Below are positions 13,465 to 64,000 of a stretch of 64,000 bases of DNA, piece by piece (within the stretch, counting starts at the first letter, position 1; each line of letters opens with the position of its first letter). The stretch covers positions 5,196,857 through 5,260,856 of the forward strand of contig OY725491.1 in assembly GCA_963281255.1 (NCBI GenBank). The letters are read 5' to 3'. Made by a program: the position numbers and the translations under genes. The notes beneath the pieces were generated by a model. It did not search any database. It was not told the DNA's origin and saw nothing but the letters and a program-made list of their open reading frames with translations. Source of the stretch: Aphrocallistes beatrix. Taxonomy: Eukaryota > Porifera > Hexactinellida > Sceptrulophora > Aphrocallistidae.

Positions 13465-13479
13465 TCTACAGAAACTCCT

Positions 13480-13807
13480 GTTATTAACGGTAAACGGATG
13501 TTTCGTCGCTGATATCTCTCCTAATGGAATTACAAACTGTTGGGAAACATGAATTGGTTCTCAAGCTGAATAGAATTAATAGGAGTGAGGATTTTGGAGA
13601 GTATTATGTATAAGAGCAAAGAGAAAGTGGGCATTTTGGGTTTGAAATAATACCAAATGGCACGCGAGAGTGGTATTTTTATTTCGTGAGGGGGTGGGTG
13701 ATTATCATTTATTATTTGGTAGAATGAATGGGAGAATGAAAGTGAGGATTCGATCATTTCATTCAAAGAAATATCAGCGACGAAACATCCGCCATTCGTT
13801 ATTAACC
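13480..13807. mobile_element. MITE with ~38-bp inverted repeats upstream of PSTK
   Basis: The arms contain CGGATGTTTCGTCGCTGATAT at 13495-13515 and its complement near 13769-13795. The outer bases GTTATTAAC are shared by both ends. The element begins only about 15 bp from the first PSTK ATG, so it is likely part of the promoter or 5' leader. No transposase is encoded. Confidence 0.75.
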
Positions 13808-14544: not shown

Positions 14545-14830
14545 GTGTAATTACATGTGTAATTACACGTGTAATTATATGTGTAATTACATGTGTAATT
14601 ACACGTGTAATTACATGTGTAATTACATGTGTAATTACATGTGTAATTACATGTGTAATTACACGTGTAATTACATGTGTAATTACATGTGTAATTACAC
14701 GTGTAATTATATGTGTAATTACATGTGTAATTACATGTGTAATTACATGTGTAATTACATGTGTAATTACACGTGTAATTACATGTGTAATTACATGTGT
14801 AATTACATGTATAATAACATGTGTAATTAT
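14545..14830. repeat. 12-bp palindromic satellite, tetramer AATT
   Basis: About 23 units of ACA(T/C)GTGTAATT. The 8-mer is ACACGTGT or its one-base derivative ACATGTGT, and the tetramer AATT is self-complementary, so both strands read alike. It is preceded by two copies of ATCATACAGTTGCGGAAA. Long open frames across it on both strands come from the 12-bp period and lack of stops, not from coding. Confidence 0.97.
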
Positions 14831-20218: not shown

Positions 20219-21042
20219 TTTTCAATAATGTTATAAATGGAAAATTATGGGTAAGTTTTTTAAACGTGTTTAAGTAAGTACTAATCATGTTTGCATTACA
20301 TTTTATATTTACATCCTCTATAAATGTCTCCAATATTCTATGAATAGAATCATCAAAAGTACCCACTCAATATTTTAATGTTATGAAGAGGAAACAATAT
20401 TGAGTATGGGGATTCACAAGTATAACTGATAAGGTCATATGGACTCGTGAATATTGAAGTAATAATTAATGTACTGTAAGATAAAATAAATGACAATTAT
20501 AAAAAAATCACTGTGCTTACATAATTTCACTAAAGTTATGAAAGGATCATTGGATCATGCTTATTAAAGAAAATACATGACTGAAGGGAAATTTCGATAT
20601 ATTGGATCATGAAACTAAAAATATTGTGCAACAGTAAACAGTATCTTGTTGCATTGCAAAACTAACAAGTGCAGTTGTTTTCTTGAGGAAATCTTATTTA
20701 TATTATAATTGATGATATTTTTATTTGCTCGGAAATATTGATAAAATGACAAGTGCTAAAATCTGAAAACATATATTAGTATTACACCGTATATACTATA
20801 GAGTGTTGATTCTGACTATCAGCTTTCCGTATACAAATGACANNNNNNNNNNNNNNNNNNNNNNNNNNNNNNNNNNNNNNNNNNNNNNNNNNNNNNNNNN
20901 NNNNNNNNNNNNNNNNNNNNNNNNNNNNNNNNNNNNNNNNNNNNNNNNNNNNNNNNNNNNNNNNNNNNNNNNNNNNNNNNNNNNNNNNNNNNNNNNNNNN
21001 NNNNNNNNNNNNNNNNNNNNNNNNNNNNNNNNNNNNNNNNNN
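20219..21042. other. No feature recognised, followed by a 200-N assembly gap
   Basis: 20219-20842 is AT-rich without coding signal. 20843-21042 is exactly 200 N, a scaffold placeholder. The first exon or exons of the adhesion GPCR, including its expected A1 exon, are probably hidden here. Confidence 0.6.
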
Positions 21043-21208
21043 CCGTAGTAGTTAAGTAAATCGTTCATTGGTATGTTGTTGACTAAAATTAATTAATGCT
21101 TGTATATCAAGATAGAACAGGCAAATCATGTTAAAAAGTGTATTGTTTTATTTAAAGATCCTTACATATGTATATTTGAATTTGTTTAACTCCATCTCTA
21201 CATTTTAG

Positions 21209-38880: not shown

Positions 38881-40977
38881 ATAAGGCATTCTTTCATTTA
38901 TTTTCAAAGTAAACAAATAATTTATCATATCGATCTGAAAACATGATACTTGAAATCTACAACCTTGAAAACTCCATGTCAACCGTTGAAAGCTAGTTTC
39001 TAGCATATTTTTGTAATTTGTTTACTTTATGTATCTAATGTAAACAAAGTTAACAAATAATTTATCATATTGATAGCAACACGTGTTGCAACACATGTTG
39101 CGACACATGTTGCGACACATGTTGCAACACATGTTGCGACACATGTTGCAACACATGTTGCGACACGTGTTGCAACACATGTTGCGACACATGTTGCAAC
39201 ACATGTTGCAACACGTGTTGCGACACATGTTGCAACACATGTTGCGACACATGTTGCAACACGTGTTGCAACACATGTTGCGACACATGTTGCAACACAT
39301 GTTGCGACACATGTTGCGACACGTGTTGCAACACATGTTGCAACACATGTTGCGACACATGTTGCAACACGTGTTGCGACACATGTTGCAACACGTGTTG
39401 CGACACATGTTGCAACACATGTTGTTTACTTTTTACTTTATTTGTTTACTTTGATTAGAATAGATACATAAAGTAAACAAATTACAAAAATTAGCTAGAA
39501 ACTAGCTTTCAACGGTTGACATGGGATTTTCAGGGGTGTAGATTTCGAATATCATATTTCTAGTTCGATATGATAAATTATTTGTTTACTTAGTTTAGAA
39601 TAGATACATAAAGTAAACAAATTACAAAAATATGCTAGAAACTAGCTTTCAACGGTTGACATGGGGTTTTCAGGGGTGTAGATTTCGAATATCATATTTT
39701 CAGATCGATATGATAAATTATTTGTTTACATTAGATAGATAAAGTAAACAAATTACAAAAAATTGGCTAGAAACTAGCTTTCAACGGTTGACATGGGGTT
39801 TTCAGGGGTGTAGATTTCGAATATCATATTTTCAGATCGATATGATAAATTATTTGTTTACTTTGTTTACATTAGATAGATAAAGTAAACAAATTACAAA
39901 AATATGCTAGAAACTAGCTTTCAACGGTTGACATGGGGTTTTCAGGGGTGTAGATTTCGAATATCATATTTTCAGATCGATATGATAAATTATTTGTTTA
40001 CTTTGTTTACATTAGATAGATAAAGTAAACAAATTACAAAAATATGCTAGAAACTAGCTTTCAACGGTTGACATGGGGTTTTCAGGGGTGTAGATTTCGA
40101 ATATCATATTTTCAGTTCGATATGATAAATTATTTGTTTACTTTGTTTAGAATAGATACATAAAGTAAACAAATTAAAAAAATTGGCTAGAAACTAGCTT
40201 TCAACGGTTGGCATGGGGTTTTCAGGGGTGTAGATTTCGAATATCATATTTTCAGATCGATATGATAAATTATTTGTTTACTTTGTTTACATTAGATAGA
40301 TAAAGTAAACAAATTACAAAAATATGCTAGAAACTAGCTTTCAACGGTTGACATGGGGTTTTCAGGGGTGTAGATTTCGAATATCATATTTTCAGATCGA
40401 TATGATAAATTATTTGTTTACTTTGTTTACATTAGATAGATAAAGTAAACAAATTACAAAAATATGCTAGAAACTAGCTTTCAACGGTTGACATGGGGTT
40501 TTCAGGGGTGTAGATTTCGAATATCATATTTTCAGTTCGATATGATAAATTATTTGTTTACTTTGTTTAGAATAGATACATAAAGTAAACAAATTAAAAA
40601 AATTGGCTAGAAACTAGCTTTCAACGGTTGGCATGGGGTTTTCAGGGGTGTAGATTTCGAATATCATATTTTCAGATCGATATGATAAATTATTTGTTTA
40701 CTTTGTTTAGAATAGATACATAAAGTAAACAAATTAAAAAAATTGGCTAGAAACTAGCTTTCAACGGTTGGCATGGGGTTTTCAGGGGTGTAGATTTCGA
40801 ATATCATATTTTCAGTTCGATATGATAAATTATTTGTTTACTTTGTTTAGAATAGATACATAAAGTAAACAAATTAAAAAAATTGGCTAGAAACTAGCTT
40901 TCAACGGTTGGCATGGGGTTTTCAGGGGTGTAGATTTCGAATATCATATTTTCAGATCGATATGATAAATTATGAGT
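38881..40977. repeat. Family B unit array (B3), inverted around a satellite
   Basis: One ~140-bp unit lies in reverse at 38905-39072. After the 12-bp satellite, eleven units in forward orientation run from about 39430 to 40977. The units show two subtypes (ATTAGATAGATAAAG with ATATGCTAG, and GAATAGATACATAAAG with ATTGGCTAG). They alternate with a ~420-bp, three-unit higher-order period, for example 40113 and 40533. No Helitron-like ends are seen. Confidence 0.9.
39075..39424. repeat. 12-bp palindromic satellite, tetramer TGCA/TGCG
   Basis: About 29 units of ACAC(A/G)TGTTGC(A/G). The core with G is the palindrome ACACGTGT and the tetramer TGCA is self-complementary. Open frames on both strands come from the 12-bp period. 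Confidence 0.97.
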
Positions 40978-41871: not shown

Positions 41872-43331
41872 TTACAACGTAAATGTATCCCGTACCAACA
41901 TGTTGGAACATTTAAAGGGTAGAAATAATGTATTTTTTTCAAACAAGACTTCAATCTCATCCAAACTTTTGTTTTTCGTTTCCGGAATGAATAGCAACAC
42001 ATAGATTACACTAATCAATAGGAAGATAAGAAACACAATGTAAGCTCCGAGCAGTGTTACGAGGTAAGGGAACAGTAGAGCCTGGGCTCCGGAAAAAAAG
42101 AGAAAAAATAAAACTGAGATACTAGCACCGATTGATCGAAACATTGGTGGGAAGAGATTCCCTTACGACTATCCATGGTATTAGAGTCCATCCAATCCCA
42201 AAAGAACCTTTAAAGATTACTCGTGCAATTACAGGAAGCAGAGTGATGTATTCGCAGAAGACCTCACTATCCAATCCGTTCTTGGAGAGGTTAGGGAAGG
42301 ATGAGGTAGGTGTGTCGTAGCAATAAAGCCATGAGCGATTTATCCCAAAAAAGTATGCAGAATTCATTATATGGCTGAAGCAGATTCCAAATGACGACAA
42401 TATCAAAAGAATCTTTCTTCCAACTTTATCAATAATGCAGGTACTTATAGATGATGTGAAGAATTGAGCAAAGGTGGGAAGGAGTGGTGCCACTTTTGGA
42501 GCGATTATGCGACTAGTGTTAAGAATGCTTACTGAATACGTATTAACAACTGTAGTACCGGTTAATACAACAAATGCGAAAAGCAACCCTATTTAGAGAA
42601 CAGTCTTCAGTTTGTTTTTTCCTTAAATAATGTAACAAATCGCTGGTAAAAGTGTCAGAGAAATTCTCTTCTACAACTGGTTTAATCTCGTCAAATTCAG
42701 CCCGGGAATCATGGGTGGGACCTCTCAGATATTGGAGAGCTCTTTTATCTTCCTTTTGTGTCACTAACCAGTTCGGGGAATAAGGTTGGAAGAAGAAAGT
42801 ACCTGAATAAGGAGAACCATGATACATACCACTGCTAACCATCTGAATGTTAAGAATATGCATAAAAAGTAACTTGAATAAAGTTGTTGAAAAAGCTTCC
42901 AAAAAAGTCCTTTCATGTTAGTTGGGAATATATCTGCTACATAAACAGATATTATAGAACAAAGAGCACCATTTGCAATACCAGTGTCAGACTGCTTCCT
43001 AACAACATAATGCTCCAGTTATTCCCAAATGCTATCAAAACCCAACCTAGGGCATTATGTATTGTAAAGAAGATCAAGAGTGCCATTTTATCTCACATAT
43101 CGACTAGGAAATAAGCGAAAATGGCTCCAAATATTGCGAAGAAGTACTGAAGCGAACCAAATATAGGAAAGGTAATATCATCAAGAATTTCTAGATTCTT
43201 AATATCCTCTTCAATGGGGGATGGATATCCGAGACTGTATAAAGTTCCAAGGTTGCAGCAGTTGTGGATAGAAGTACCAGAATTGTTCTTTGCCTACTCT
43301 TCTTTTTGAATTTGTCTTCGTATCGCGACAT
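41872..43331 (-). pseudogene. SLC2-type (MFS) sugar transporter pseudogene
   Basis: The ATG at 43331 begins MSRYEDKFKKKSRQRTILVL. Later segments are recognisable in shifting frames: helix-rich stretches, PNWLVTQKEDKRALQYLRGP (the usual ESPRWL...A...L..LRG block), IIDKVGRKILLI (DRvGRR), IPWIVVRESLPTNV (PWf...E.fPt.vR) and PETKNKSLDEIE, the SLC2 C-terminal signature. At least three frameshifts and an in-frame stop near 43100 (VDM-stop-DKMAL, where D..GRr is expected) disrupt it. It has no introns, suggesting a retrocopy or an old single-exon gene. It is not functional as read. Confidence 0.88.
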
Positions 43332-46550: not shown

Positions 46551-46750
46551 NNNNNNNNNNNNNNNNNNNNNNNNNNNNNNNNNNNNNNNNNNNNNNNNNN
46601 NNNNNNNNNNNNNNNNNNNNNNNNNNNNNNNNNNNNNNNNNNNNNNNNNNNNNNNNNNNNNNNNNNNNNNNNNNNNNNNNNNNNNNNNNNNNNNNNNNNN
46701 NNNNNNNNNNNNNNNNNNNNNNNNNNNNNNNNNNNNNNNNNNNNNNNNNN
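46551..46750. other. Assembly gap of 200 N
   Basis: Exactly 200 N, a placeholder of unknown true length. It interrupts the membrane-protein frame on the plus strand and is the only place close downstream where further exons of the minus-strand VWA gene could be hidden. Confidence 0.98.
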
Positions 46751-47287
46751 CAACCTATCATCTTATCAATATATTTTATATTCTGGATGAAGCAAATCAA
46801 AAGATTCCATCAAGTGTTAAAATGGAGAGCAGTCGAGATGAAGGTCTCTGGAAGGATTAGTAATGTTCTAGTGCGAAGAGCTAAGATCAATGTCTACCAA
46901 TTCGATATCATAATGACGTTGAATGGGATCGGATTCGCTTGTTCTATCTTAGGACAAGTCGTCAGTCAAATTTCCTTCCTAATCTTGAATATAGTGTATT
47001 ATGGCCCATGTATATTTAACTTGGTTTATTCTACCCCACTCTATGATCCAAAAATTGCTGTAACCAAATCATTTATTGACATTTTTGACTATGTTACAAC
47101 AGCTCTTGTCGCCATTTTGGTCATTCTATGTCTTATTTTCATAGGTCTACACTACATCCTGTTTTCTTTACTTCTGATTATCAATAATTTTTACAAACAA
47201 ATAATGTCACATTTTAAAAGAGGAACTCGATTTAGGTTTTCTCCATCTCTAGTGAATCCTCTTCTCTTCAAACATCAAGAAAAGTAA
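46751..47287 (+). CDS. C-terminal part of a multi-pass membrane protein
   Basis: The frame is open from the gap edge to a TAA at 47285-47287, 178 codons. It shows the end of a hydrophobic segment (ILSIYFIFW), a basic loop of about 40 residues, a second long hydrophobic segment (IGFACSILGQVVSQISFLIL), a short loop, a third (TTALVAILVILCLIFIGLHY) and a basic tail (HFKRGTRFRF). This fits helices 5-7 of a GPCR, with the basic stretch as the third cytoplasmic loop, but there is no NPxxY or other signature. It could equally be another multi-pass protein. It has no visible intron. Confidence 0.5.
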   Translation, partial: QPIILSIYFIFWMKQIKRFHQVLKWRAVEMKVSGRISNVLVRRAKINVYQFDIIMTLNGIGFACSILGQVVSQISFLILNIVYYGPCIFNLVYSTPLYDPKIAVTKSFIDIFDYVTTALVAILVILCLIFIGLHYILFSLLLIINNFYKQIMSHFKRGTRFRFSPSLVNPLLFKHQEK

Positions 47288-47592
47288 TATTCGTATTTTA
47301 TAATATTCTGACTCAGTTATTTTGCTCTAATTATCTTAATATTTCATGTATTATTGCTAATAATCAGTTTTGATAACATTAAAGTAACCATCTGGTCATT
47401 GTCTCTTATCTAGGCACTATGATCTATACAGGCTAAATTGAATGTCAAATTTAAATTGTGCCGTTCTATATTAAAATACGAGTGTATTTAATATGAAAGG
47501 AATAATTGGATTTCATAGATTATATAATCTACTCCCGCAATGATTAGTCATCTAGAAAGCATATTTGCATGCTTCTATATACTAAAACTTAC
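47288..47592. other. No feature recognised
   Basis: AT-rich sequence between the plus-strand membrane-protein stop and the last recognised minus-strand VWA exon. I searched it for an exon like B2 and found none. Confidence 0.5.
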
Positions 47593-49492
47593 TTATTGTT
47601 ACAAGAATCACCCTTAGTAGGGAGTTTAGCAGCTAGATTATTTATGCTTGTATAGTATGAGTTCATTGAAGCTGTCCTATCGACTAGGAAGACCATGTCT
47701 ACACAGTTGGAGAAAGCTTGTGGATTGATGTCTTTCCATTGCTTGTGTGCAACAGTTGAGATTATATCACTGTATGTGAATATCTGACCTAAAGAAAATA
47801 CAAATAACTGAACACTTAAAACTACAGCAAAAATATGTTGTAAAATACAAAACAGTGGAGATTAATGTGTTCTTATAACTTACCAGAGAAATCACACTTA
47901 GTTTCTGCAAATACACCAAAAAGGAAAGCTTTCGAGAACAAAGAAGGGCAGTAATCAGCTGATTTCAGATAATTTAGATCAAATCCTGCTCCATTCGTGC
48001 TCCAAGCTAGTTCAATGTAACTGACGTAGATATCCGAATTGGAAATGGAATATTGGGAGTTTAGAACTGTTTTCATCTCTAAAGAAGAATCGCAATTGGT
48101 AGAAACGAATGTTCCAAATCCAATTCGACTATTATAGTTCATCCCAATGAGTTGTTGATAGTTGGTGCTGGGAGTCGAGTAATAGTAATCAGCTCCGTTA
48201 GACACAATACTGAGGGAGATGTCGTTCTGTAATAGTGAAAGGAGAGTATTCTCATAGTTGTACCGCTCTGTTGCAACGACTATCTCTCGGTCCTAAAAAG
48301 AAATTAATTCAGGAAAAATTTCAATAACTTGACACAGAAGTTGTACAAAACAATTGTTAACATTTGCTATTGTTTATATGCAATTAGTCAGTTACTTGAA
48401 AAATCGCAAGATGATACCTATCAAATCAATAGATATTACATTGATAATATAACCAATTCCTACTTCTTCAAATTAATGATGCTAAAAAGGGCATTAAGCA
48501 CCAAAATGTTGTTTCATCATATAAATGTAGCATAATTTTCGAAATGCAGAGAACTCTTATTGTATCCTCAATTTTTAACCCTTTTTACTTATCAATATGT
48601 TTAAAACGGAGATAATTTTGTTATATTGGAGAATATCCTTTTTCATTTCCAAAATATTATAACCAAGATCATAATTAACAAGAGCAATTCATGTTCTTAA
48701 ATAAATCATTGAGTCTGAAAATAATAAATTAGATATTTAATAGATTAGTAGTTACGATAATAAATATGTGAACAATGAAATATATCAAATAAAAATGACT
48801 CACATCATCAGCAAACAGGACCATGCGTTTCTTCACATAATTTCTGAACTCATATGAATCTAGGGCTTGGTGAATACCTCCATATCCATCTTCATTTCCA
48901 GCACCAAACACCATACTAATGTTGAGATTCTGTTGTATCGCATTGCTCAACTGCCGAGGATTCCCAAAGTAGGAATTTGTAGAGACATTCACAGTGATTG
49001 CTCCGGTTGCTAATCCATATATTGTGAGGCCATATCTAAAATAATTTTTTCAAACGATGAAAATGTATGAAGATTTGTATTTGATAAAATCAACTCATTT
49101 GGTAGTTGCTATCTAAACTACCTTTTTGTAGCTAAGAACCACTAACTATTTTAAATATTCTATATAAATGAACCAATGCTTGGTCCAAATTAGTGCCATA
49201 TTTAGCTACCACGCTCAGAAACCGTTTAATTATTAGCATTTTCCGAAAGATATGAGTAAGTTGGAGTCAAATGCAATAAAAGAAATTGCTTACCTGTTAG
49301 TACAGTTATTGGTGGTATCTGGCAGTGAAGAAATTAATTCCATTATTCTCGCACTTGCATTGCCAATGGAAGACCTGAACTCCATTATGAAAACAAGATC
49401 TACACAATCTGTCAGTTCTAGGTCCCCACAGGTATTATCCTCGATTTGTAGATTTGATGGTCCAAATTGCTGGAATGGATAGATGGGGATTT
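47593..49492 (-). CDS. VWA-VWA-Ig gene, module 4 (A1-A2-A3-B1 only)
   Basis: Exons: A1 49294-49492, A2 48804-49035, A3 47884-48292, B1 47593-47788, all with GT-AG boundaries and the module's phase series. A1 reads CVDLVFIMEFRSSIGN where other copies have DxSxS, so the MIDAS Asp is replaced by Glu and the site is probably dead. B1 keeps DRTAS. A3 carries YIELAWSTNGAGFDLNYL. After B1 a GTAAGT donor is present, but no B2-like exon is found before the gap. Without splicing the frame stops two codons later (AAG TAA). The gene therefore either continues through the gap or is truncated. Confidence 0.82.
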
Positions 49493-49570
49493 CTATACAA
49501 AATTTATGTCATTATTCAATGGTGAACGAATTTTGCATAGTATGAGGTGATATTTCAATTTTAAACTCAC

Positions 49571-52500
49571 CAACAATTGTATAGTTAGCTATACTTGAAT
49601 CAGATCCCAATGAGCTGTTAGCAACACACACATAGCTGTACAGGTCTGGTGGGAGATGAGTGAGACTCAGTTTAACCTCAACTGAACTTGTACTGAAGTT
49701 GAAACTGCTGTTGGTGTACCATTCTCCGTCTATTATGAGGCTGATGCCCAACCCAGGCGAGTAGGTAGCTGAGCATGAGAAAGTGTATTCAACTGAATCT
49801 CTAGATATATATGTGTCCACATTCGTTGTAATTATTTTGAAAGGTTCTAAAAAGGAGTTGAACCGTGATTAATAGCAACCTAATGTATCTCTGTTAAAAA
49901 GTTAAAAGGATGCAGGTTATTTACTATGAGATGGAGAAAGTATTTATATTTGTCAAAATAAACTAATTTTTGTAGAAATTTCAAAATAATATGCTCACCA
50001 TATGTGTGTGGGATACTGAAGTTGGATCTAGTCCCGTAACTGAACAGAAGCTTGTTGAAGAGAGTAGAAGTCTGCACATACTTGCTACTACCACTGTATG
50101 CTGACAAGTCAAATGCCACGCCACCACTCAACCACGCTAAGTCAACATAATTAGTGTGTGCATTCGTATCAGAAGTAACATTCCTGCTTGGAGAGAATGC
50201 ATTGATGTTAGTCGCACTCTCTCCACTCAACTGTCCAAACCCGATCAAAATGTTGGATAATTCAACTCCTGCTAGCAATGTGTCACTGGAAGTTCCGTAG
50301 GTGGAGAAATCATCAGCATTAGTTACTGCACTCAATATGATGTCGTTATTCAGAAGTTTCGCTAATACAGATGACTTCGTTACTGAGGTAGAGATGATAG
50401 AACGAGGCTATACCAAATTTGGAATATAAATATGTATTTATTAGTGAAATAATTTATTCAAAGTTGGATCAACTTATCCTTACCTCGTCTGTGAATAAAA
50501 CAATGTGTTTCTCAGCTCTATTACGGAAATTGTATTGATTGATGACATTGTTGATTGCTCTCAATCCGTCTTCTTGAGATCCAGATGTACTGAAAGAACC
50601 TAATTTGCTTCTTAGCTGATTTCTAGTGCCCCACTTTCTCGATGAACCTCCAACGTTGATATTAGTAGGTGAGTTTTGAAAAATAGTCAATCCGAATCTA
50701 ATAAATATTCACAGATATTTAAAAATAATGAATAAAAAATATGGACAGATCGATACCCAGTTCTATTAAGTCACCAGCCACAGGATGTTAAAACTTAAAA
50801 TTAAATGTTATTTCGCTAAATGTTCAAATTATTACTTTCTAGATACAATATTCGCATTTTACTTAGAAACAAGCCAAACGCAATTGTAGAATTACAATAC
50901 TATTGCATGAGCACTTAACTAATTCTCTGTTTGTGAGAATGGTGTGTTTGAGATGAGAAAATATTCACACAATTAAAAATGTTCTGGATTTACATTATAA
51001 CTGAGGACCAACACGTTTAAACACGTTTAAGCATGTTTAAACGTGTTTAAACACAGATATTTGTGTCCGCCACGTGTAGCTACATATGTAGTTACACGTG
51101 TAGCTACACATGTAGCTACACGTGTAGCTACACATGTAGCTACACATGTAGCTACACATGTAGCTACACATGTAGCTACACATGTAGCTACACGTGTAGC
51201 TACACATGTAGTTACACGTGTAGCTACACATGTAGTTACACGTGTAGCTACACATGTAGCTACACATGTAGCTACACATGTAGCTACACATGTAGCTACA
51301 CATGTAGCTACACATGTAGCTACACATGTAGTTACACGTGTAGCTACACATGTAGCTACACGTGTAGCTACACATGTAGCTACACATGTAGCTACACGTG
51401 TAGCTACACATGTAGCTACACGTGTAGCTACACATGTAGCTACACATGTAGCTACACGTGTAGCTACACATGTAGCTACACGTGTAGCTACATGTGTAGC
51501 TACACGTGTAGCTACACGTGTAGCTACACATGTAGCTACACGTGTAGCTACACATGTAGCTACACATGTAGCTACACGTGTAGCTACACATGTAGCTACA
51601 CGTGTAGCTACACATGTAGTTACACGTGTAGCTACACATGTAGCTACACATGTAGCTACACATGTAGCTACACGTGTAGCTACACATGTAGCTACACATG
51701 TAGCTACACGTGTAGCTACACATGTAGCTACACATGTAGCTACACATGTAGCTACACATGTAGCTACACATGTAGCTACACATGTAGCTACACATGTAGT
51801 TACACGTGTAGCTACACATGTAGCTACACATGTAGCTACGCATGTAGCTACACATGTAGCTACACATGTAGCTACACGTGTAGCTACACATGTAGCTACA
51901 CATGTAGCTACACATGTAGCTACACGTGTAGCTACACATGTAGCTACACATGTAGCTACACATGTAGCTACACATGTAGCTACACATGTAGCTACACATG
52001 TAGCTACACGTGTAGCTACACATGCAGCTACACGTGTAGATACACGTGTAGCTACATAAATGGCCCAAACTGACCAAAATGCTTTACTATAGCAACGCAG
52101 GAATGTAACAACACTACATTGAAAAATTCTAAATTTTTCAAATCAACTCGTACTAATCTTAGGTTTACACAAAAATTCTACCTTAATGACATTTAAAGTA
52201 GGCTTAAAACAGCTTAGAAAACAGTAGTATAGAAAACGATTCTAACAAGTGACACTAGTCTAAAAAAAACTATTCTAACAAGTGACAAATGGCAACTTCA
52301 AAATTCTAACAAATGCAGACACCTCATCCATTCGGGTATTACCGCATCCTTGGTTATTTTACTGTGAGGCATTATTAGAGTAGGCTATGTTAGAATATAT
52401 TATTACAACTCACCGGTTATTGCAAGTATCTCCTGTAGTGGGTAAGTACCGAGCTATATTTCTAATAGCACCAAAATAAGAACTCATAGATCCAGTTCTG

Positions 52501-54272
52501 TCAACGACAAACACCATGTCTACACAAGATGATCTATGATGAGCTGTGATGTTGCCCCACTGTGTGTGTGTAGATTCGACAGAACGATTTGCATATGCAT
52601 AGACTGCACCTATAGAAAGTTAGTGATAACATTTAGTTTACAGCAAAAACAGATATATTAGGTAAAATGTTATCTGCATGCTCCAATAGTGCGTAAAAGT
52701 TATTGTTACAAATCGGAAATGGCTAACGATCAGTTAGTGGCAATAACTTCACCAGTATTATTACAAAATTTCAAAAGTATTGCATCGGTTTGCAAATATT
52801 TTAGTTATGGTAAACCAAGGATTCTCGGCATAAAGGCCACAATTTCGACGATAAATTACTGTACAATTATGGTCACAAATATTCTTGAGTCATGGATATG
52901 AACATAATAATAATAATAACAATATACATTTATATAGCGCAGATTCCATATTAATATGTTCAAGTGCGCTGTAATGTTCTGTAATGTTAGCTGTAATGTT
53001 AGCTACACCACTTGGCTACATCACGACAAAGAGTTATCTAGGAGCGCGAGACGCTCCTTTAGGCGGAAGATTTTAAGCCTCAAAGTGTAGAAGCATGAAA
53101 ATCCAGATAATTCCCAATTTATCTTATATTACGTATATTGTTATTTATCGATTTAAGAGAGGACGTATGAAAATTTGGGTTTGAGATTAGGAGCGTAGCT
53201 CTGGAGGGCTGTTAATACCCCCTTATCTGTGCTATAAACAATTACCACATTCTTACCATTTAGAACACAAGGTGTATCAGTCAGAGTAGCAAAGGAGAAC
53301 ACATCTGTAAGATGATTGGGACAGAAAGAAGGATTCGTAGATTCAAAATAGCTCATATCGTAGGAAGCCCCGCCAGTCGTCCAAGCAAGTTCCACATAAC
53401 TGTAGTGCTCACTAGCATTACGAATCGTGTATTGTGCATTTAAGACTGTGTCCAGTTTGACTGCTGGCAGAGTACTGCATGATGAGTAGTTTCCGTAGCC
53501 AATTCTATTGCTAGCAGTCATGCCGATCAACCTCTCTTGAGAATCTGCTGCTGAGTATGTGTCTCCGTAGGTAACCACGCTTAGGATGATGTTGTTTTCG
53601 AGGAGCAGTAAGAGAGTGCTTTCATAAGTATGGTATATTGCAGGCGAAATTATTTCTCTTGGCTAAAATCGAGAAGAGAAAGATCAGTAAATAAATTTCT
53701 GCAATGTTGAATGAATTTATTTAATACTAGTTTAAATCAGCAATAAAAGTACATATATGTAAATGAGTAAATTAATGAATAATTTCAATCTTACCTGATC
53801 AGTGAACAGAACCATCTTTCTTTGTACGTCACTTCTAAACTGATAATTTGCAATAGCTTCATGGATACCAACATAGCCGTCATGAAGTCCTGAGCCTGAA
53901 CCAAGGGATGCGATGGTTGACTGTAATTCTGCTGGAGTTCCGAATAGTGAGTTTGTTGAGATATTTACAGAAGTAGCCAGATTAGAATCTCCAATTATCG
54001 TTAATCCAAACCTACGAAGATGAAAGCATGTAATTATAGAGAAAATACATCTAAACTGACATTTTTTTACCTATTGTCACAAGAGTTGTAAGATTGATTC
54101 AAAGATCCAGCTAGTGAAGCGATTCTGTTAAGTTTGTTGCTAATAGTTGCACTAACATCTATCACGAAAATGAGATCGGCACAGGACGTGAGAGTGTAAG
54201 TGTCACATGTGATTTCAGGTGCATCTGGAATGAAATTGGGAGCGAATTGCAAAAATGGTGAGATTGGAGTTT
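49571..54272 (-). CDS. VWA-VWA-Ig gene, module 3 (complete)
   Basis: Exons: A1 54071-54272, A2 53795-54011, A3 53257-53662, B1 52414-52609, B2 50484-50697, B3 49999-50407, Ig 49571-49846, together 1920 nt (640 codons) in one frame. MIDAS-like motifs are DVSAT in unit A and DRTGS in unit B; the second acidic position lies in VLFTDQ and VLFTDE. A3 and B3 carry YVELAWTTGGASYDMSYF and YVDLAWLSGGVAFDL. The Ig has FSCSATYSPG and YSYVCVANSS. Extracellular adhesion is likely from the domains. The B1-B2 intron has expanded to 1.7 kb around the 12-bp satellite at 51.1 kb. No signal peptide or membrane segment lies in this module. Confidence 0.9.
51071..52056. repeat. 12-bp palindromic satellite, tetramer AGCT (~82 units)
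   Basis: Units are ACAC(A/G)TGTAGCT, with a minority of AGTT tetramers. It sits inside the B1-B2 intron of module 3. Just before it, at 51009-51055, AACACGTTTAA-type repeats form a related but irregular palindrome. Open frames of over 330 codons in three frames are by-products of the 12-bp period. Confidence 0.98.
52902..52990. repeat. Fragment of a dispersed repeat in an intron
   Basis: An AAT-rich tract is followed by ACATTTATATAGCGCAGATT and AAGTGCGCT, then two TGTAATGTTAGC copies. Sequence of this type (TTTATATAGCGC ... GCGCT) is common in animal interspersed repeats. The class is not determined. Confidence 0.4.
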
Positions 54273-54441
54273 CTAAATTCATTGAAGTGAATTAATAACC
54301 ATAATGGATGTAGAGCGAAATAAATAACAGAACAAACAAAACCTAATGTCATTGGAAACTGGTCAATCGATAGACGAATAGTGCACTTTCAAAATACTGA
54401 CCAGGGTGTAACTTTGTTGAATATGTGTAGAAACAGAAATA

Positions 54442-54608
54442 CAGTCGACTCCGCTTAATAGGGTCACATCGGTCAGAGAACATTTTGCCCCGATTAAGCG
54501 GAGAGCCCTATTAACCGAAAATATTTATTAGCTTATATGTGTGAGAGCTATTTCGGTCCTGCCAAAAGTGGGCCGATTAATCAGTGATCCTATTAAGCGG
54601 TGTCGACT
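54442..54608. mobile_element. Pogo/Tigger-like MITE between modules 2 and 3
   Basis: The left end CAGTCGACTCCGCTTAATAG follows a TA; the right end is the diverged GCGGTGTCGACT. It is the same family as the intact copy at 59471-59658. It lies in the intron between the Ig exon of module 2 and A1 of module 3. Confidence 0.85.
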
Positions 54609-54706
54609 AAAATCAGTCGTACGAGCAGAGGAAGTATTACTCCATCAATGGCTTAAAAGCATCTCGCCATAGGATCTGCACCAAAGATAGTAACTGTGAA
54701 ACTCAC

Positions 54707-57700
54707 CACTAATTGTATAGTTCCCCAACTCTGAATCTGCACCTAGTGTACTATTAGCAACACAGACATAGCTATACATCCCTGGTGTGAGATGAGTTAG
54801 TTCAGACTTAATCTCGATCGAATTGGAGCTGGTGTTCGTGTACCAACGACCATCTATGATCAGACTTATGGACAGTCCTGGTGAGAATGTAGCAGAACAG
54901 GAGAATGTGAACTCGATGGAATATTTAGAAATATCCTCATCGACATTTATAGCAATTATTTTGAATGGTTCTAAATGAAGAAAATTTGTATAAATAATAA
55001 TTTGCAATTATTATCTTAAAAAATAAAGGTTTCAAAACTAGAAATGTATTTTGTATGTTTCATTAGTGCATATTATACTATATTGTCTCTAAACGTGATT
55101 TTCTGATCACTCACCGTATGTGTGCGGGATACTGAAGTTAGAAGTAGTTCCATAGCTGAACAGAAGCTTGTTGAAGACAGTAGAAGTCTGCACATACTTA
55201 CTACTTCTGTATGCTGACAAGTCAAATGCTACGCCACCACTCAACCACGCTAAGTCAACATAATTAGTGTGTGCATTCGTATCAGTAGTAACATTCCTGC
55301 TTGGAGAGAATGCATTGATGTTAGTCGCACTCTCTCCACTCAACTGTCCAAACCCGATCAAAATGTTGGATATTTCGACCCCCGCTAATAATGTGGAACT
55401 GTCAGCGCCATAGGTGGAGAAATCATCGGCTTTAGTTACTGCACTCAGTATGATGCCGTTATTCATAAGTTTTCTTAATATAGATGACTTGGTTACTGAA
55501 GTAGCGATGATAGAGCGAGGCTAGAGTAAATTTATAATTAATCTACATCAATAATGTGCTATTTTTCATTTAGGCTAGAAATATTATTACCTCATCTGCG
55601 AATAAGACAATATGTTTTTCAGCTTTATTACGGAAATTGTACTGATTGATAACATTGTTGATTGCTCTCAATCCATCTTCTCGAGATCCAGAAGTACTGA
55701 ATGAACCTAATTTGGTTCTTAGCTGACCTCTAGTGCCCCACTTCTTCCCAGTACCCCCAACATTAATATTAGAGGGAGTCTCTTTGAAAATTGTCAGTCC
55801 ATATCTAGGAAAATATGCATAAATAAGTTGAATAATAAACCTTCTCAAGTATGTTATGTTAAAAAATGTCAGACAGATGGTACATCTCCAATAGGGTGTG
55901 AAAATTATGCAAGCAATACATGCATGAAATAATGGCTTAATAAATATGTATTCACATCATCAGTGAAATTTACAAAACTGATGATGGCGACATCACATGT
56001 GATTTCCGATATGTAGTAATTCGTCTCAAAAATAATTTTAAAATCGTCAAAAAGTAATATTAATTCGATTTACTTGAATCTATATCCTATACTATGAACT
56101 ACTAAGAATTTGAAACTAACCTATTTTTGCAACTATCTCCATTCACTGGTAGATACTGAGCAATATTTCGGACTGCAGGAATATACGAAGTCATTGAGCC
56201 AGTTCTGTCGACAACAAACACCATATCCACGCAAGGGGACTTCTGGTGAGCTTTGATGCTGCCCCACTGTGTGAATGTAGAATGGAGAGAGCGATTTGTA
56301 TATGAGTAAACAGCACCTAAAATATGTATATAACTCTATGCTCAGCTACATCACGGATGCTGGAATTTTAATGATCTGATACTTATTAACAGTTATTTTT
56401 TACAAAGTAACCTTGATAGTTATATTATTCTTCAAATGATTGAGTTTCATCATTTTATTTTATTTATAATTTCAATTTAAGTATTTATATTATTTCTGTT
56501 GACTAAGTACTATATATTGAACATATGTACGTATATCTATCGATAATTAGTAGTATAGAGTAGAATTACCATTGAAGGTACAAGGTGTATTAGCCAGAGT
56601 AGCGAATGAGAACACATCTGTAAGATGATTAGAACAGAAAGAAGGATTCGTAGATTCAAAATAGCTCATATCGTAAGAAGCCCCGCCAGTCGTCCAAGCA
56701 AGTTCCACATAACTGTAGTGCTCACTAGCATTACGAATCGTGTATTGTGCATTTAAGACTGTGTCCAGTTTGACTACTGGCAGAGTACTGCATGATGAGT
56801 AGTTTCCGTAGCCAATTCTATTGCTAGCAGTCATGCCGATCAACCTCTCTTGAGAATCTGCTGCTGAGTATGTGTCTCCGTAGGTAACCACGCTTAGGAT
56901 GATGTTGTTTTCGAGAAGACTTTCGAGGATGTCTTCAAAACTTAGGTAACTACTTTGTGATGTAGCTTCCCTTGGCTAGACGAAATAATTAACGTATATA
57001 ATGGGAACATAGTGAATAGACAGGTAAATAATTTTCTGTTATAAATTTTATTAATCAGAATTAAAAAATGGATAGAACAGGGTACTAAATCTTCTTGTAG
57101 TACCAATAACTTTCGTGTTATCTTATAAAACAATATTTGAATTTGTAACTAACCAAATTCGAGGAATTTGTTTGAATAATATTAACCTTCGTTTATCTTA
57201 ATGCTTATTACAAGTATGTATTTTGAAGGAAATTACATCATTTGTCAATCAGCTGGAATAATATTTATATTTTCAGCATTTAGAAATTAATCTACTGATA
57301 TCGTGTCATTTTCCTACCTGATCAGTGAACAGAACCATCTTTCTTTGTACGTCACTTCTAAACTGATAATTTGCAATAGCTTCATGGATACCAACATAGC
57401 CGTCATGAAGTCCTGAGCCTGAACCAAGGGATGCGATGGTTGACTGTAATTCTGCTGGAGTTCCGAATTGTGAGTTTGTTGAGATATTCACAGAAGTAGC
57501 CAGATTAGAATCTCCAACTATCGTTAATCCAAATCTACGAAGATGAAAGTATGTAATTATAGAGAGAATATATCTAAACTGACACACAATTAAAAATTAA
57601 TTGCTTGCTTTCAATTACTTGAAAAAAAACACATTGTTTTTTACCTATTGTCACAAGAGTTGTAGGATTGATTCAATGATCCAGCTAGTGAAGCAATTCT

Positions 57701-57846
57701 GCTAAGTTTGTTGCTAATTGTTGCGCTAACATCTATCACGAAAATGAGATCGACACAAGACGTGAGAGTGTAAGTGTCACATGTGATTTCAGGTGAGTTA
57801 GGAACGTAGTTAGGTGAGAATTGATTAAAAGGGGAAATGGAAAGTT
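54707..57846 (-). CDS. VWA-VWA-Ig gene, module 2 (complete)
   Basis: Exons: A1 57645-57846, A2 57318-57534, A3 56570-56975, B1 56121-56316, B2 55591-55804, B3 55115-55520, Ig 54707-54970, together 1905 nt (635 codons) with no stop. It is almost identical to module 3 over A1-A3 and B3 (the A3 exons differ at only a few residues), and part of the A1-A2 intron is also shared. That indicates recent duplication or gene conversion. MIDAS motifs are DVSAT and DRTGS. The Ig ends at phase 1, so it joins module 3's A1 in frame across the 434-bp intron carrying the MITE. Confidence 0.9.
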
Positions 57847-58399
57847 CTAAAATATAGAATTTTGTATCATAATACATTATAAATTTATAAATTATTTAGC
57901 TTAAGATTGTGTTTAAAAAATAACAATTCAGCAATTAAATCAACGTAGTTTATACACATTCATAATATTATAGTTCCAGTGGAAGTTCTATAAATTTAGG
58001 TGATGATAGGAATGTAGTAAGCAATGGTGATGTTTAATCTTATATATTAAAACTCTAGGATTTTTTGTTTGTTTGTTTGTTTGTCCGAATTGATTGAAGA
58101 ATTGGCAAGTCATAGAGGTACGAAAATTGGCATGTAGGTGTATGATGAATCTAGGATTAAGTTCGAAAATCTAAGCGAAATTTTCACACCTCTGCAAAAA
58201 AAATGGAAACAAATTTTCACACCTTTTCAATACAAAATAAATGACTACACTATCACAATAGAAACCATTGTACGACACTACAATAGATCGTCATTGTTAT
58301 TAATATTTCAAAGCCACAACTTATGTTTGATTTCTTAAATGTATTATAGTATTTGACAATAAAAAATATTGTCTGCATATTTTCACACCTTTATATACA

Positions 58400-58535
58400 T
58401 ATTTATATAATAATTATATAATAATTATATAATAATTATATAATAATTATATAATTATTATATAATAATTATATAATTATTATATAATAATTATATAATT
58501 ATTATATAATAATTATATAATTATTATATAATATT
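58400..58535. repeat. AT palindromic repeat (ATAATTATAT)n
   Basis: Tandem TATAATAATTATATAATTAT-type units, fully A/T and self-complementary, inside element B4. Confidence 0.9.
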
Positions 58536-58679
58536 TGTATATTTTCACACGATTTAACGAATTTTGAAAATTATGCTAGAGACTATCTTCCAACGGTTGA
58601 CAAGGGGTTTTCAGGGGTGTAGATTTCGAATATCATATTTTCAGATTTATATGATGAGTTATTTGTTTACATTAGATAC

Positions 58680-58790
58680 TTTAACCGTGGAATGCCCAGA
58701 GGGGACACAGTGTCCCCGGTATCGCGGATGTCTCCCAGCCATTTTCTATGGCACTGAAGCCATATAAATGCTGGGCATTCTACAGTTAAA
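58680..58790. mobile_element. 111-bp MITE nested in B4
   Basis: The ends TTTAACCGTGGAATGCCCAG and CTGGGCATTCTACAGTTAAA are inverted repeats with two mismatches. They interrupt a family B unit, whose text resumes at about 58795. Confidence 0.85.
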
Positions 58791-59470
58791 CGTTTGAAAT
58801 GGGGTTTTCAGAGGTGTAGATTTCGAATATCATATTTTCGGATCCATTAGAGAAATTCTTCGTTAACTTTTGTTTACAACTTTTATATAAAGCAAAAAAA
58901 TCCAAAATAGGTTAGAATAAATAATTTCAGGCGCCCGCAGGCCGACTCTGCGGATACACAGTGTATGCATGTATTATAATGTATTATAATGTATGGCATA
59001 AAAAATTATGTGCATATTTCATACCTTTATGTACATATTTTCACACCATTTGACAAATTTTGAAAAATATGCTCGAAACTAGCTTCCTACGGTTGACATG
59101 TGGTTTTTAGGGGTGTAGATTTCGAATATTATATTTTCAGATTTATATGATGAATTATTTGTTTACTTTTGTTTACAATCGATACATAAAGTAAACAAGT
59201 GACAAAATTAAGCGAGAAACTAAGAGATTTGCATCCAACGGTTGACATGGGGTTTTCAGGGGTGTAGATTTCGAAAATAATATTTTCGAGTAAGTTTGTT
59301 ATTTAAAATTTTTACTTTTGTTTACAATAGGTACATAATGTAAACAAATCTCAAAAATATGCTAGAAACTTGCTTTCAACGGTTGACATGGGGTTTTCAA
59401 GAGTGTAGATTTCGAATATCATATTTTCGGATCCATATGAAAATTTATTCGTTGACCTTTGTTTACAATA

Positions 59471-59658
59471 CAGTCGACTCCGCTTAATAGGGCAACTGTT
59501 TAATCGGGTCAGCCGCTTAATCGGGACACTTTTGGCAGGACCGGAATAGCTCTCACACATAGAAGCTAATACAAAATATTTTCGGTTAATAGGGTCCTCC
59601 GCTTAATCGGGGCAAAATGTCCTCTGACCGATGTGGCCCTATTAAGCGGAGTCGACTG
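59471..59658. mobile_element. Pogo/Tigger-like MITE nested in B4
   Basis: CAGTCGACTCCGCTTAATAG and CTATTAAGCGGAGTCGACTG are exact 20-bp inverted repeats flanked by TA on both sides (59469-59470, 59659-59660). A second inner pair of GCTTAATCGGG repeats lies inside. Confidence 0.92.
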
Positions 59659-60093
59659 TATATATATAATGGAAAAAAATTAAAAAAATAGTTTAGATTG
59701 AGTGTCTCCAGGCGCCCGCAGGACGACTCTGCGGACACGAGATGTCCGCAAGCCGCGCAGCGCAAGCAAGCGAAGCGCGCTTGTATGCAAATAATATCTC
59801 AGTGATCAAGATCAAACTTTGAATAGAATAAGTCAATTTATACATCAAAATTTATGGACAGTATTGATTTGATCTGGCAGACACAATTATTCAAGAATGG
59901 TTAGCATAGGGGATACAATCATTCTTGGTGGTCCAACAGTCCAAAAAATTATTTAGAACCATTTTTCACGGATCAGATGCCTGATTTATAATTATGAATT
60001 ATTACGGACTGTCCTTGTATAATATTAGATATTCTAATATACAATTCTGCGTATAACAAATAGTAGAATAATGAAGTGATATCTAATTCATAC

Positions 60094-63000
60094 CTGGAAC
60101 CACGAATGTTCCTAGCCACACATTCCCTCTGTAGGTGTTGTTTGCAAGACATAGGAAGTTATAAGTCCCAGGTATAGTCGTCCACAATGGTGCTGTTACA
60201 GAGATGTAGCCAGATCCTGGTTGAGAATACCGTCTCCCATTGATGATGAGTGAGACCGTAGTGTTTGTGATGTTATTCGTTTCGCATGTAAAGATGTAGT
60301 TAGGAACATTGTTCCTTATCCCAATTGCTGATGCGTTGATTGATAGAAGTTGATAGTTTTCTAGAAAATTATGTTTGTTCAAAATACCAAATCAACACTT
60401 ATCTGAAGACTAAATCCTCAATAGTTATACAGTATATATGCTTAAACCCGCGCTTTGCGAGGTGTTTTGTTGCGTCATTTCCGGTTTAAGCCATTTTGGG
60501 CGGGGAAGCCATACAAGTTTGGGGTCTTACTATAAATATAAAAAACTACTAAGCCAACTGTAAGTTAAAATCCTATGTGATTATATAGGAGCAATAGTGG
60601 CTGGCTAGTTTGCAATTTTGATCCAATGCTAAGCTTAATACTCTCTATTTTTTAATCCTCAGAAAATGTCACTACTCTAACTTTTAAATCGCCCAATCAT
60701 TTTAAATATTTTAACAAATCTAATAGATATCTAGCATATAATCTAGAAGAATAGCACAGTGATTCCCAACCTTTATAAGCCCAATGTCACTTTACGAATC
60801 TAAATGCATCACAACTTCTACTCGGCAAGCGTATCTGATCGGCTGGTTAGGAATCTCTACCCTATTCACACTCCAAAACATTTGCACATGAGCACCTTTA
60901 TTTGTAGACTGTTCACGAAACGCAAAACGTAATGGAAGCAAACAACATTTAAATAAAATGTTCAAACAAGTTTCCTCTAGTCAATCGCGATCTACGCAGT
61001 AAGCCTATGTCAGGCCTGGCGCCACTGGTCCGGTTGGTACGATTTTAACCGGACCACATTTCAAAAGTGATCCCAGGTTGGTCCTGTTAAACCGGAAAAC
61101 TTTTCAAAAGTGGTCCGGCTGGTTCAGTAAATACCGGACCACCTCTAAAATTGTGGCGCCGGTGCTGTATGTGATCTACTTGCCGATTTCGGTCGACCGG
61201 TTGGGAATCCTACGATAGTACATATGAACTAGCCAATTTTATTCCTATCCAAATATTTTTGCCACTTAAGTATCAAGCATCAATTATAATATAGAGCTGT
61301 TTTATTGAGTAAATCCGAATTAAGGTAGCCGTATCGAAACTATAGTCGATTCCTGGGTTACAATGCCGCAAAGTTTTGGACTGAAACGGAAAATAAGTCA
61401 AATGGAATTATATTTATGAAATAATAATAATATTAGAAATTGTAAATAGTTGAACTCACCATTTATTGCAGAGTAAGAAAACATGATTTTATTGAATATG
61501 GCTGAGTTTTTAACATAGTTAGCAGTGGATAGATAGAAGTCGAGATTGAATGCAATTCCTCCAGTATTCCAGGCCAGTTCAACATAATTGGTATGTGCAT
61601 TTGAACTGCTGATGCTGTTGTATACTGGTGCGTACGCGTCTACTACTGTTGGTTTGGTCGTAGATCTCTCATCAAAACCGATCATTATATTTGAATACTG
61701 AACAGCTGCATGGATGGAAGAAGTAGAGGTAGAGGAAATTCGGTAGTTGAAGTTTTCTGCTTTGGTTGCAACACTAAGGAAGATTTCATTCGTTTCCAGT
61801 CTCAGTAGAATTCCAGAAGTAGTGAGAGAAGATGTCACTACTGACCTTGGCTATTGAGAAAGAATCCTCGTAAATTCTTTTTAATAATTACAATAACTAA
61901 AAAAAAAGTACATTCGTACTCAAAGTTAAGCAATATAACGAGAAACACAATTAGAATTTGCTTAATATTCCACTTGAGGTTGTGTACAAAACATTTATTT
62001 AATTTAAATATATAAAATCATACCTCATCAGTGAATAGAACAATATGTCTCTGTGCATTTGTCCGAAATGGGTAGTATCTCAGCACGTAATCAATTCCAA
62101 CATAGCCATCTTCTTGTGAACCGGAACTTGAATAAGTCCCCAATGCAGTGTATAACTCACTGGGAGTGCCCCAGTACCCTGATGTTCCTACATATACCCT
62201 GGCAGCATATGTGGAAAAAATGGTGAGGCCATATCTAAGAGAAAAATCGTGTAAATAGATCTGAAACTTAATTAAAATACTACGTATAGTTATAAATTGA
62301 TACTCGCCTGTTAATGCATGTTTTACCATTTTCGGGCAATTCACTAGATAGATTTCTAATATTGCGTAGTTCAGTATTCATGGAGCCAGTTCTATCCACT
62401 AAAAAGACCATATCAACACAGCTACTCTTTACATTTGGCATAATGTTGTTCCATCTTGTGTAATAGCCATTTGTAGGAATTTTCTTCGAGGCATATGTGT
62501 ATGTAGTATCTAAATTGTTATTTGATTTATTATTTTTGAAATAGAAATTATGAAAGTAATTTTGGATTGATAATTATAGAAATAGTTACCTTCAGGATCA
62601 CACTTTATTCCTTGTAAAATACTCTGAGAAAACAGTAAAAATGCCTGAGTAGAACAAAATGAGGAAGTAGGTATATCAAAATAACTCAAATCGAAACTTG
62701 TTCCATTGGTATTCCAGGCCAACTTCACGTAGTCTAGGAAATTATCTTCATGTCCTGTTCCAACTGAGTAACTAACATCCGATGTAATGTCTAAATCGTT
62801 GCTACAACTAGAATCTGAATAGTTTCCAAATCCGATTTGATCGTAGAATGTCATTCCAACTAGTCGATATCTACTTTGTTCGTTGGTATCTCCGTAGTAT
62901 TGAATTCCATTGGTAAACACGCTTAGAGTTATGTTGTTCGTAGTTAGAAGTAGGAGAGTGTTTTCGTAGGTATATTGCTGTGTTGAAGCGATTGGAAGGC

Positions 63001-64000
63001 GAGACTAAAATATTAATTTTCAATGATATTTTCCTGTTAAAATTAAGTTATTTCATTTAAAATAGTCCTGCGTACAATATGGGACTTATTATATGCTTAT
63101 TTATTATATCTAAAGAAGATTATGTTTCATTTGATAATTGCACTATTGCATCATTGCCATAGTGTATAGAATGCTATGAACTAATTCCTTTTACCTGGTC
63201 TGTGATTAGTACTAATCTTCGTTCAACTTCGTCTCTGAAGGTGTAGGTTTCTACAATTTTTTGGATACCAGCATACGCATCTAGATGTCCAGATGTTGAT
63301 GAGCTGGGAAGAGAACTGAGAGACTGGAGATAAGAATCGAATTCTGTTGCAGTACCAAAATACAAAGTCCCGTTAATTTGAATGGGTGTTGTTGTTGCAT
63401 TAGTTGATCCGTATACTGTTAAACCGTACCTAAGAGCAAATTGTCAAGTATTTCATTGCAAAAGCTTTAATTTATTTCGGAATTATTCTCTTCCATTCAG
63501 CAACTCAAGTTACATCCTTAGAGGAAACTAGATCTAGTAGTATGCTCTATTTAAAGATTACTCAGAATTAAAATAAATGGGAGTGGCAGTAATGTTTGAA
63601 TAATTACTATTCCTTTCTAGATTCATCTATGAAAGCAATAATTATGAATGTTAAATGTTAAGGCGGATCTGTTACAGGACTTTAACCTCTTGGGGGAGGG
63701 GAATAAACAAGATATTGGTGATTTTACATCATTAAGATCTAATTATGCAGAGTGAATCTTAACTTAATTCTCACAATCCATTATAAAGTGAGATCAGAAA
63801 TTTGGTTTAAAAAAGACCTATGCACCCGAAATTTAATAAATTTAGTTTTAAAATACAAGATTTTGTCGTATAAAGCAGGACTTTAGCTTATTAGATTGTT
63901 ACCTATTAATGCAGGTACCAGAGAAATCAGACAGGTTCGCTGCTAGAGTAATCAAATTGTTCAGTTCAGAGTTGATTGATCCACTAATATCAACCAAGAA
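60094..64000 (-). CDS. VWA-VWA-Ig gene, module 1 (runs off the window)
   Basis: Exons: A1 63903->64000, A2 63195-63429, A3 62590-63004, B1 62308-62509, B2 62024-62234, B3 61460-61850, Ig 60094-60360. Phases repeat the 1-2-0-1-2-0-1 series. A1 opens FLVDISGSINSELN, a perfect MIDAS DxSxS; B1 has CVDMVFLVDRTGSMNTEL. B1 ends at a GC donor (AACAG then GCGAGT at 62306), a rare GC-AG intron, because no GT is available at the phase-2 boundary. A3 and B3 keep YVKLAWNTNGTSFDLSYF and YVELAWNTGGIAFNL. The Ig is the most divergent of the set. It is the 5'-most module seen; the start codon and signal peptide must lie beyond 64000. Confidence 0.88.
60361..61459. other. Intron between B3 and Ig of module 1
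   Basis: Contains an inverted-repeat element at about 61017-61162 (TGGCGCCACTGGTCCGG and a diverged complement with TGTGGCGCCG) and further ACCGGACCAC copies inside it. The remainder shows no feature. Confidence 0.55.

Follow-up and report, generated by a model that had tools for sequence, protein, structure and literature searches.

A tandem VWA-VWA-Ig array as the predicted ectodomain of a giant adhesion-type GPCR in the glass sponge Aphrocallistes beatrix

We analysed a stretch of 64,000 nucleotides (hereafter the window; C4:5196857-5260856) of the Aphrocallistes beatrix genome, which comprises 100.5 Mb in 28 contigs, and propose that the tandem array of minus-strand exons at one end of it encodes part of the ectodomain of a very large GPCR of the adhesion type. 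This reading is predicted from the genome sequence, and we put its probability at nearly nine in ten. The gene in the window, one of four sister loci and named copy 1 here, would encode in order a signal peptide, an array of six VWA-VWA-Ig modules (6 Ig and 12 VWA domains), five FN3 domains and one Ig domain, followed by a GAIN-like region whose GPS is degenerate, seven transmembrane helices and a tyrosine-rich tail. Summed over separately analysed parts, its 54 exons would code for about 5,200 residues. The initial annotation had proposed a very large extracellular adhesion or recognition molecule; in our reading it is not a free molecule but the ectodomain of an adhesion-type GPCR.

The array had been described as 25 exons, and all 25 were found again with seven exon-class profiles, made from window sequences and run over the window and its surroundings in all frames. 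Their order is P1-P2-P3-Q1-Q2-Q3-Ig, where P and Q stand for the A and B of the earlier naming. Over six frames the seven profiles gave 57 matches in the window, a number that arises partly by construction as the profiles are window-derived and P and Q profiles may match one exon, against none in the reversed sequence and none in 10 local shuffles; because of this derivation, the controls show only that such matches do not arise by chance. The lengths first reported proved exact for module M2a (202, 217, 406, 196, 214, 406 and 264 nt), as did the totals of 1905 nt for M2a and 1920 nt for M2b, and the exon lengths of module M1 also add up to 1920 nt. The phases 1-2-0-1-2-0-1 correspond to the incoming exon phases that we measured.

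Module M1 (60094-64000, minus strand) consists of P1 at 63903-64101, which runs beyond the window end, P2 at 63195-63429, P3 at 62590-63004, Q1 at 62308-62509, Q2 at 62024-62234, Q3 at 61460-61850 and Ig at 60094-60360. Module M2a (54707-57846, minus strand), which is extra in copy 1, has its exons at 57645-57846 (P1), 57318-57534 (P2), 56570-56975 (P3), 56121-56316 (Q1), 55591-55804 (Q2), 55115-55520 (Q3) and 54707-54970 (Ig), and those of M2b (49571-54272, minus strand) lie, in the same order, at 54071-54272, 53795-54011, 53257-53662, 52414-52609, 50484-50697, 49999-50407 and 49571-49846. Module M3 is represented by its first four exons (47593-49492, minus strand), namely P1 at 49294-49492, with a degenerate metal-site motif, P2 at 48804-49035, P3 at 47884-48292 and Q1 at 47593-47788, and is continued on an unplaced contig (C5:20321-21374). 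The 25 exons have AG acceptors and in-phase GT donors, with a single GC donor at Q1 of M1 (62308-62509). A signal-peptide exon lies beyond the window end, at 64166-64211; spliced in silico to the 25 exons, it opens one frame of 2,275 codons with no stop. The count of at least 3.6 modules given at first was a lower bound, as the 3' end of the array at 47593 precedes an assembly gap (46551-46750) and is not the end of the gene.

Several repeats accompany these exons. A 12-bp tandem repeat (CACATGTAGCTA) is present in 82 copies at 51071-52056, inside the intron between Q1 and Q2 of M2b, and further 12-bp arrays occur at 14545-14829 and 39076-39424. A dispersed repeat with units of 140-149 bp forms arrays of up to 11 copies at 738-1589, 39438-40973 and 59063-59470, one of which sits between receptor exons.

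The nature of the receptor can be read from copy 3, which lies outside the window (window coordinates 142757-103825, minus strand) and contains modules M1 to M5. Spliced in silico, the 47 exons of copy 3 all join in phase and code for 4,551 residues, with a single stop at the end; the model includes one exon with a changed acceptor, kept by homology, and its length is approximate, the acceptor used for P1 of M4 being probably three codons short. Its seven-helix domain is of the 7tm_2 type (E 2.9e-13, 50.1 bits, Pfam cut-off 20.6), and ahead of it lies a long adhesion-type ectodomain with VWA (E 5.8e-11), five FN3 (fn3, E 5.4e-65, five stretches) and Ig (Ig_2, E 5.3e-6, 27.0 bits, cut-off 27). 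As the modules of copy 3 are joined in frame to fn3, Ig and 7tm_2, we conclude that they are the ectodomain of an adhesion-type GPCR. The GPS profile remained under its Pfam cut-off of 22.5 on copy 3 (E 0.16, 13.0 bits). The sequence of the GPS region is TNHFTSFA, of which NHFTSFA is common to all four loci; the histidine and the threonine are kept in each of them, cysteines are absent, and HFT stands in place of HLT. The GAIN profile gave no match among the Pfam results for spliced copy 3, and we use the label GAIN-like for a putative region named from its position in the gene. The tails carry NPVY in all four copies. YxxI/V/L/M motifs number two per tail in copies 1, 2 and 4, and three in copy 3, where the count includes the end of the preceding exon.

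The 3' half of the window gene was found on the plus strand, at 21209-32605. It starts with module M5 minus its first exon (21209-23881), with splice sites in phase: P2 at 21209-21440, P3 at 21643-22048, Q1 at 22121-22322, Q2 at 22398-22617, Q3 at 22750-23131 and Ig at 23630-23881. Five FN3 exons follow (23949-27102 in all, at 23949-24239, 25238-25570, 25812-26135, 26245-26568 and 26806-27102), the counterparts of those matched by fn3 in copy 3, and then the exon for the Ig domain and the start of the GAIN-like region (27210-27811), the counterpart of the Ig_2 match. Two more GAIN-like exons (28354-28632 and 28702-28830), an exon for the degenerate GPS and TM1-3 (29382-29877) and one for TM4-7 (30158-30805) lead to the cytoplasmic tail exon (32265-32605 to the stop, start approximate), with its NPVY and YxxV motifs. 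A genome-wide profile search placed 7tm_2 matches at C4:5226433-5226747 and 5227013-5227357, that is at window positions 29577-29891 and 30157-30501.

How the two halves belong together is indicated by the assembly gaps and by C5, an unplaced contig of 33,681 bp. The minus-strand half ends at Q1 of M3, 842 bases short of a gap of 200 N (46551-46750) that interrupts the gene, and the plus-strand half begins with P2 of M5 shortly after another gap of 200 N (20843-21042), which bounds the piece 21043-46550 on its opposite side. Window 46751-53037 (6,287 bp) recurs in C5 with 100.000% identity, and this perfect identity stops exactly at the gap edge, 46751. Beyond it, C5 carries the next 11 exons, from Q2 of M3 to P1 of M5. 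In-phase AG/GT sites were found in all 11 C5 exons and in 16 of 16 tested exons of the plus-strand piece, and C5 and this piece do not overlap. When compared with the 3' half of copy 2, the plus-strand piece gave nine inverted blocks over 21201-30785. Apparently, the 25.5-kb piece 21043-46550 was placed backwards between its two gaps, splitting the gene over both strands. The simplest reading is one gene that runs from the minus-strand half of the window through C5 to the plus-strand piece, a scaffold order that we infer; the count of six modules in copy 1 depends on C5.

Alternatively, the printed orientation could be right, in which case a real inversion would have left two broken genes in the window, one with its 5' half (minus strand) and the other with its 3' half (plus strand). 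The assembly as printed says so, and copy 4, a sister without a 5' half, likewise lies on the plus strand. Against this, both breakpoints are gaps of 200 N, and C5 extends the minus-strand half to P1 of M5, where the plus-strand piece starts at P2 of the same module. Moreover, copy 4 is 95.4% identical to C5:26987-27660 and is also the sister that the FN3 and GAIN-like exons in the plus-strand piece resemble most. We thus hold a true inversion to be unlikely and retain the single gene, an example of how a scaffolding error can conceal a receptor by dividing it between both strands. The first part of C5 (C5:1-11908) has no match to the window past 53037, where the two diverge abruptly, and has no module exons; it conflicts with window 53038-64000, either through a haplotype difference or through an assembly error.

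The four sister loci lie within about 152 kb. Copy 1 has modules M1, M2a, M2b, M3, M4 and M5; copy 2 (window coordinates 98113 to 67586, minus strand) has M1, M3, M4 and M5, with FN1, FN4 and FN5 only; and copy 4 (window coordinates 162622 to 173339, plus strand) extends from the Ig of M4 to the tail. The proposal of tandem VWA-VWA-Ig modules as phase 1-1 cassettes is thus upheld, with 6, 4 and 5 modules in the arrays of copies 1, 2 and 3, and module number varies among the sisters because each module is such a cassette. These differences show how phase 1-1 cassettes build giant receptors. The identity between M2a and M2b is a mosaic, ranging from 98.6% (P2) down to 70.0% (Ig) by exon; in four of the seven exons (P3, Q1, Q3 and Ig), the M2 of copy 3 is nearer to M2b than to M2a. 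Such mosaic exon identities suggest a duplication followed by later exchange.

With a query from the 7TM part of copy 3, copies 1, 2 and 4 were matched at 82-95% identity and the other matches listed at 47% or less, among at least 114 matches genome-wide (108 of 139 candidates scored). The genome-wide 7tm_2 profile search matched three of the four loci, including that of the window; copy 4, with TM exons that match the ones in copy 3, is absent from the matches listed at E 0.001.

Some of the copies may be pseudogenes, given their lesions: copy 2 has indels in two exons, and copy 3 has one splice acceptor that reads GG where copy 2 has AG, for which reason we rejected the notion of a wholly intact copy 3. 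That the locus as a whole is a decaying pseudogene array could be argued from these same lesions and from copy 4, without a 5' half in the assembly. Two findings speak against it. We tested 52 of the 54 exons of copy 1, and all of these are open and have splice sites in phase. dN/dS ranged from 0.21 to 0.47 across 25 comparisons, drawn from five domain groups and five of the six copy pairs. This estimate covers neither the two copy 2 exons with indels nor the first P1 exon; the C5 exons, the small GAIN exons, the tail and the comparison of copy 2 with copy 4 are likewise outside it. General decay of the array is accordingly improbable. It is more improbable still that the array encodes a free secreted or matrix VWA-VWA-Ig protein beside unrelated 7TM genes. 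When its donor is disregarded, the Ig exon of the last module does read through to a stop after a few codons, but we rejected this stop as the protein end: a GT donor precedes it closely, at the position and in the phase (phase 1) seen in the other module Ig exons, and an FN3 exon in the right phase comes next in copies 1 and 3. In all four loci, the modules are also followed by FN3, Ig, GAIN-like and 7TM exons in one constant order (copy 2 without FN2 and FN3).

The VWA domains of the modules exceed the curated Pfam cut-off of 23.8, with 40.0 bits for M2a of the window (E 6.2e-10) and 43.4 bits for M1 of copy 3, in two stretches each. Among the VWA units of copy 3, for which the first MIDAS motif only (DxSxS or DxTxS) was tallied, the Q-type units have DRTGS in 5 of 5 cases and the P-type units have DISGS, DVSAT, EFRSS, DMSGY and DISAS, a strict DxSxS in 2 of 5. 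The YVELAW..GG motif noticed earlier in the third exons recurs there, with variation, in all the VWA units that we aligned. A profile comparison against five VWA domains from this genome reached a probability of 96 and stopped before the motif (columns 32-172 of 277). Structure models of the single exons A3 and B3 (P3 and Q3 here) are of low confidence (mean pLDDT 57.2 and 57.0) and have a helix-strand, four or five more strands and then a helix-strand-helix; the motif falls within the late helix and strand. None of 258 Foldseek matches obtained with the first single-exon model (pLDDT about 57) was at E 0.001, and none of nine VWA units was matched in NCBIfam at E 0.01. The most likely, if weakly supported, reading of these models is that A3 and B3 would complete the VWA fold after an insertion of about 50 residues, with the motif as the last VWA helix and strand, not a new domain. 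As for the module Ig, no Pfam Ig family was above its cut-off in the searches with M2a of the window and with copy 3. Two cysteines are invariant in 6 of 6 sequences and PDB profiles gave weak Ig matches (best E 0.00032, MuSK), and it is from these two features that we name the domain, which is best described as Ig-like.

Matches to a module query were found only at C4:5.218-5.363 Mb and on C5 among those scored, with at least 90 matches in all (69 of 105 candidates scored). The 7tm_2 profile gave 134 matches genome-wide, many of them clustered at C4:4.94-5.89 Mb, and the four sister loci lie inside this large adhesion-GPCR cluster. Against these 134, the genome profile searches gave 1 match for 7tm_1 and 4 for nuclear hormone receptors; few of these two kinds and many 7tm_2 is not a bilaterian pattern. 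The one neighbour that we examined is an SRCR-type adhesion GPCR on the same contig (plus strand, window coordinates about -47460 to -25603), which shares the Ig, GAIN-like and 7TM half; its 7TM exons (C4:5170014-5171112) are 41% and 33% identical to copy 3. It differs in an ectodomain of SRCR repeats (E 2.6e-82, six stretches in the part searched) and in a GPS above the Pfam cut-off (E 3.1e-6), with SSHLTSFA where the four loci have NHFTSFA. With a shared 7TM half and SRCR repeats in place of the modules, the cluster may record ectodomain swapping. The window also contains a piece of a KTI12-like P-loop protein (12724-13560, minus strand, E 4.4e-14), an NHL repeat piece (15742-16473, plus strand, E 3.6e-11), a sugar transporter exon (42125-42592, minus strand, E 6.3e-6) and an open frame at 8058-9227 (plus strand) with no Pfam match.

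The only PDB match to the VWA at E 0.01 was integrin alpha-X (E 0.0036), and integrins likewise have a VWA with a metal-site motif, while hemicentin joins VWA with Ig domains. To our knowledge, neither has a 7TM domain or an alternating VWA-VWA-Ig array, and the predicted insertion of about 50 residues before the last helix would also set the VWA described here apart from theirs. Closer in overall plan are the adhesion GPCRs of another sponge, Amphimedon queenslandica, which in the account consulted (PMC4302439) are of the 7tm_2 type and have long ectodomains with fn3 and Ig. Some have tandem SRCR repeats, and a GPS is present in 28 of 40, hence usual and not universal (PMC4302439). They differ in that the domain list of the Figure 4 legend of that paper includes no VWA. 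The terms 'VWA' and 'von Willebrand' do not occur in the main texts of PMC4302439 and PMC12716839, nor in the first 300,000 of the 412,533 characters of PMC13197933, and 'von Willebrand' does not occur in the main text of PMC10280926; the part of PMC6208332 covered here gives a VWA gene and adhesion GPCRs separately. No VWA-bearing adhesion GPCR was among the matches listed in the open-access literature, judged by titles and the starts of abstracts, and unreported database entries may exist. As far as we searched, the VWA, a classic metal-dependent adhesion head, is thus newly added to the domains of adhesion GPCRs, and this in an early-branching animal.

Going by the domain families, the VWA array would bind extracellular ligands in a cation-dependent manner, above all through the VWA that comes second in each module and carries the DRTGS metal-site motif. 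Ig and FN3 domains may act as spacers that hold the VWA array off the membrane, and ligand binding or pull would be passed through the Ig-GAIN stalk to the 7TM domain. Because the GPS lacks cysteines and has HFT in place of HLT, signalling would probably proceed through a stalk that is cleaved poorly or not at all, and the tail may in addition recruit proteins that bind phosphotyrosine. One might speculate further on an integrin-like GPCR, in which up to 12 metal-dependent VWA heads on a single stalk would bind a ligand, or a matching receptor of another cell, and so pull on an uncleaved GAIN-7TM, and in which cassettes gained, lost and exchanged between the sister genes would make individuals differ, for recognition or allorecognition in a glass sponge; we regard this as improbable.

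We also looked at the mitochondrial cox1 of the same assembly (C28:3140-4480), which reads without a break in frame and uses TGA 14 times and TGG never; its codon usage, together with the receptor counts above, points to a probable glass sponge. Programmed frameshifting is named in the title of an earlier report on glass sponges (PMC2267718), and in this respect the unbroken cox1 here adds no support for a glass sponge. According to the part of that report consulted, UGG is rarely if ever used for tryptophan in the three glass sponges then known, and AGR is read as serine in them, not in demosponges or other lower metazoans (PMC2267718). In the cox1 found here, none of the 16 AGA codons lines up with an arginine of a mammalian COX1; their counterparts there are 6 Ser, 4 Ala, 3 Gly, 2 Asn and 1 Lys.
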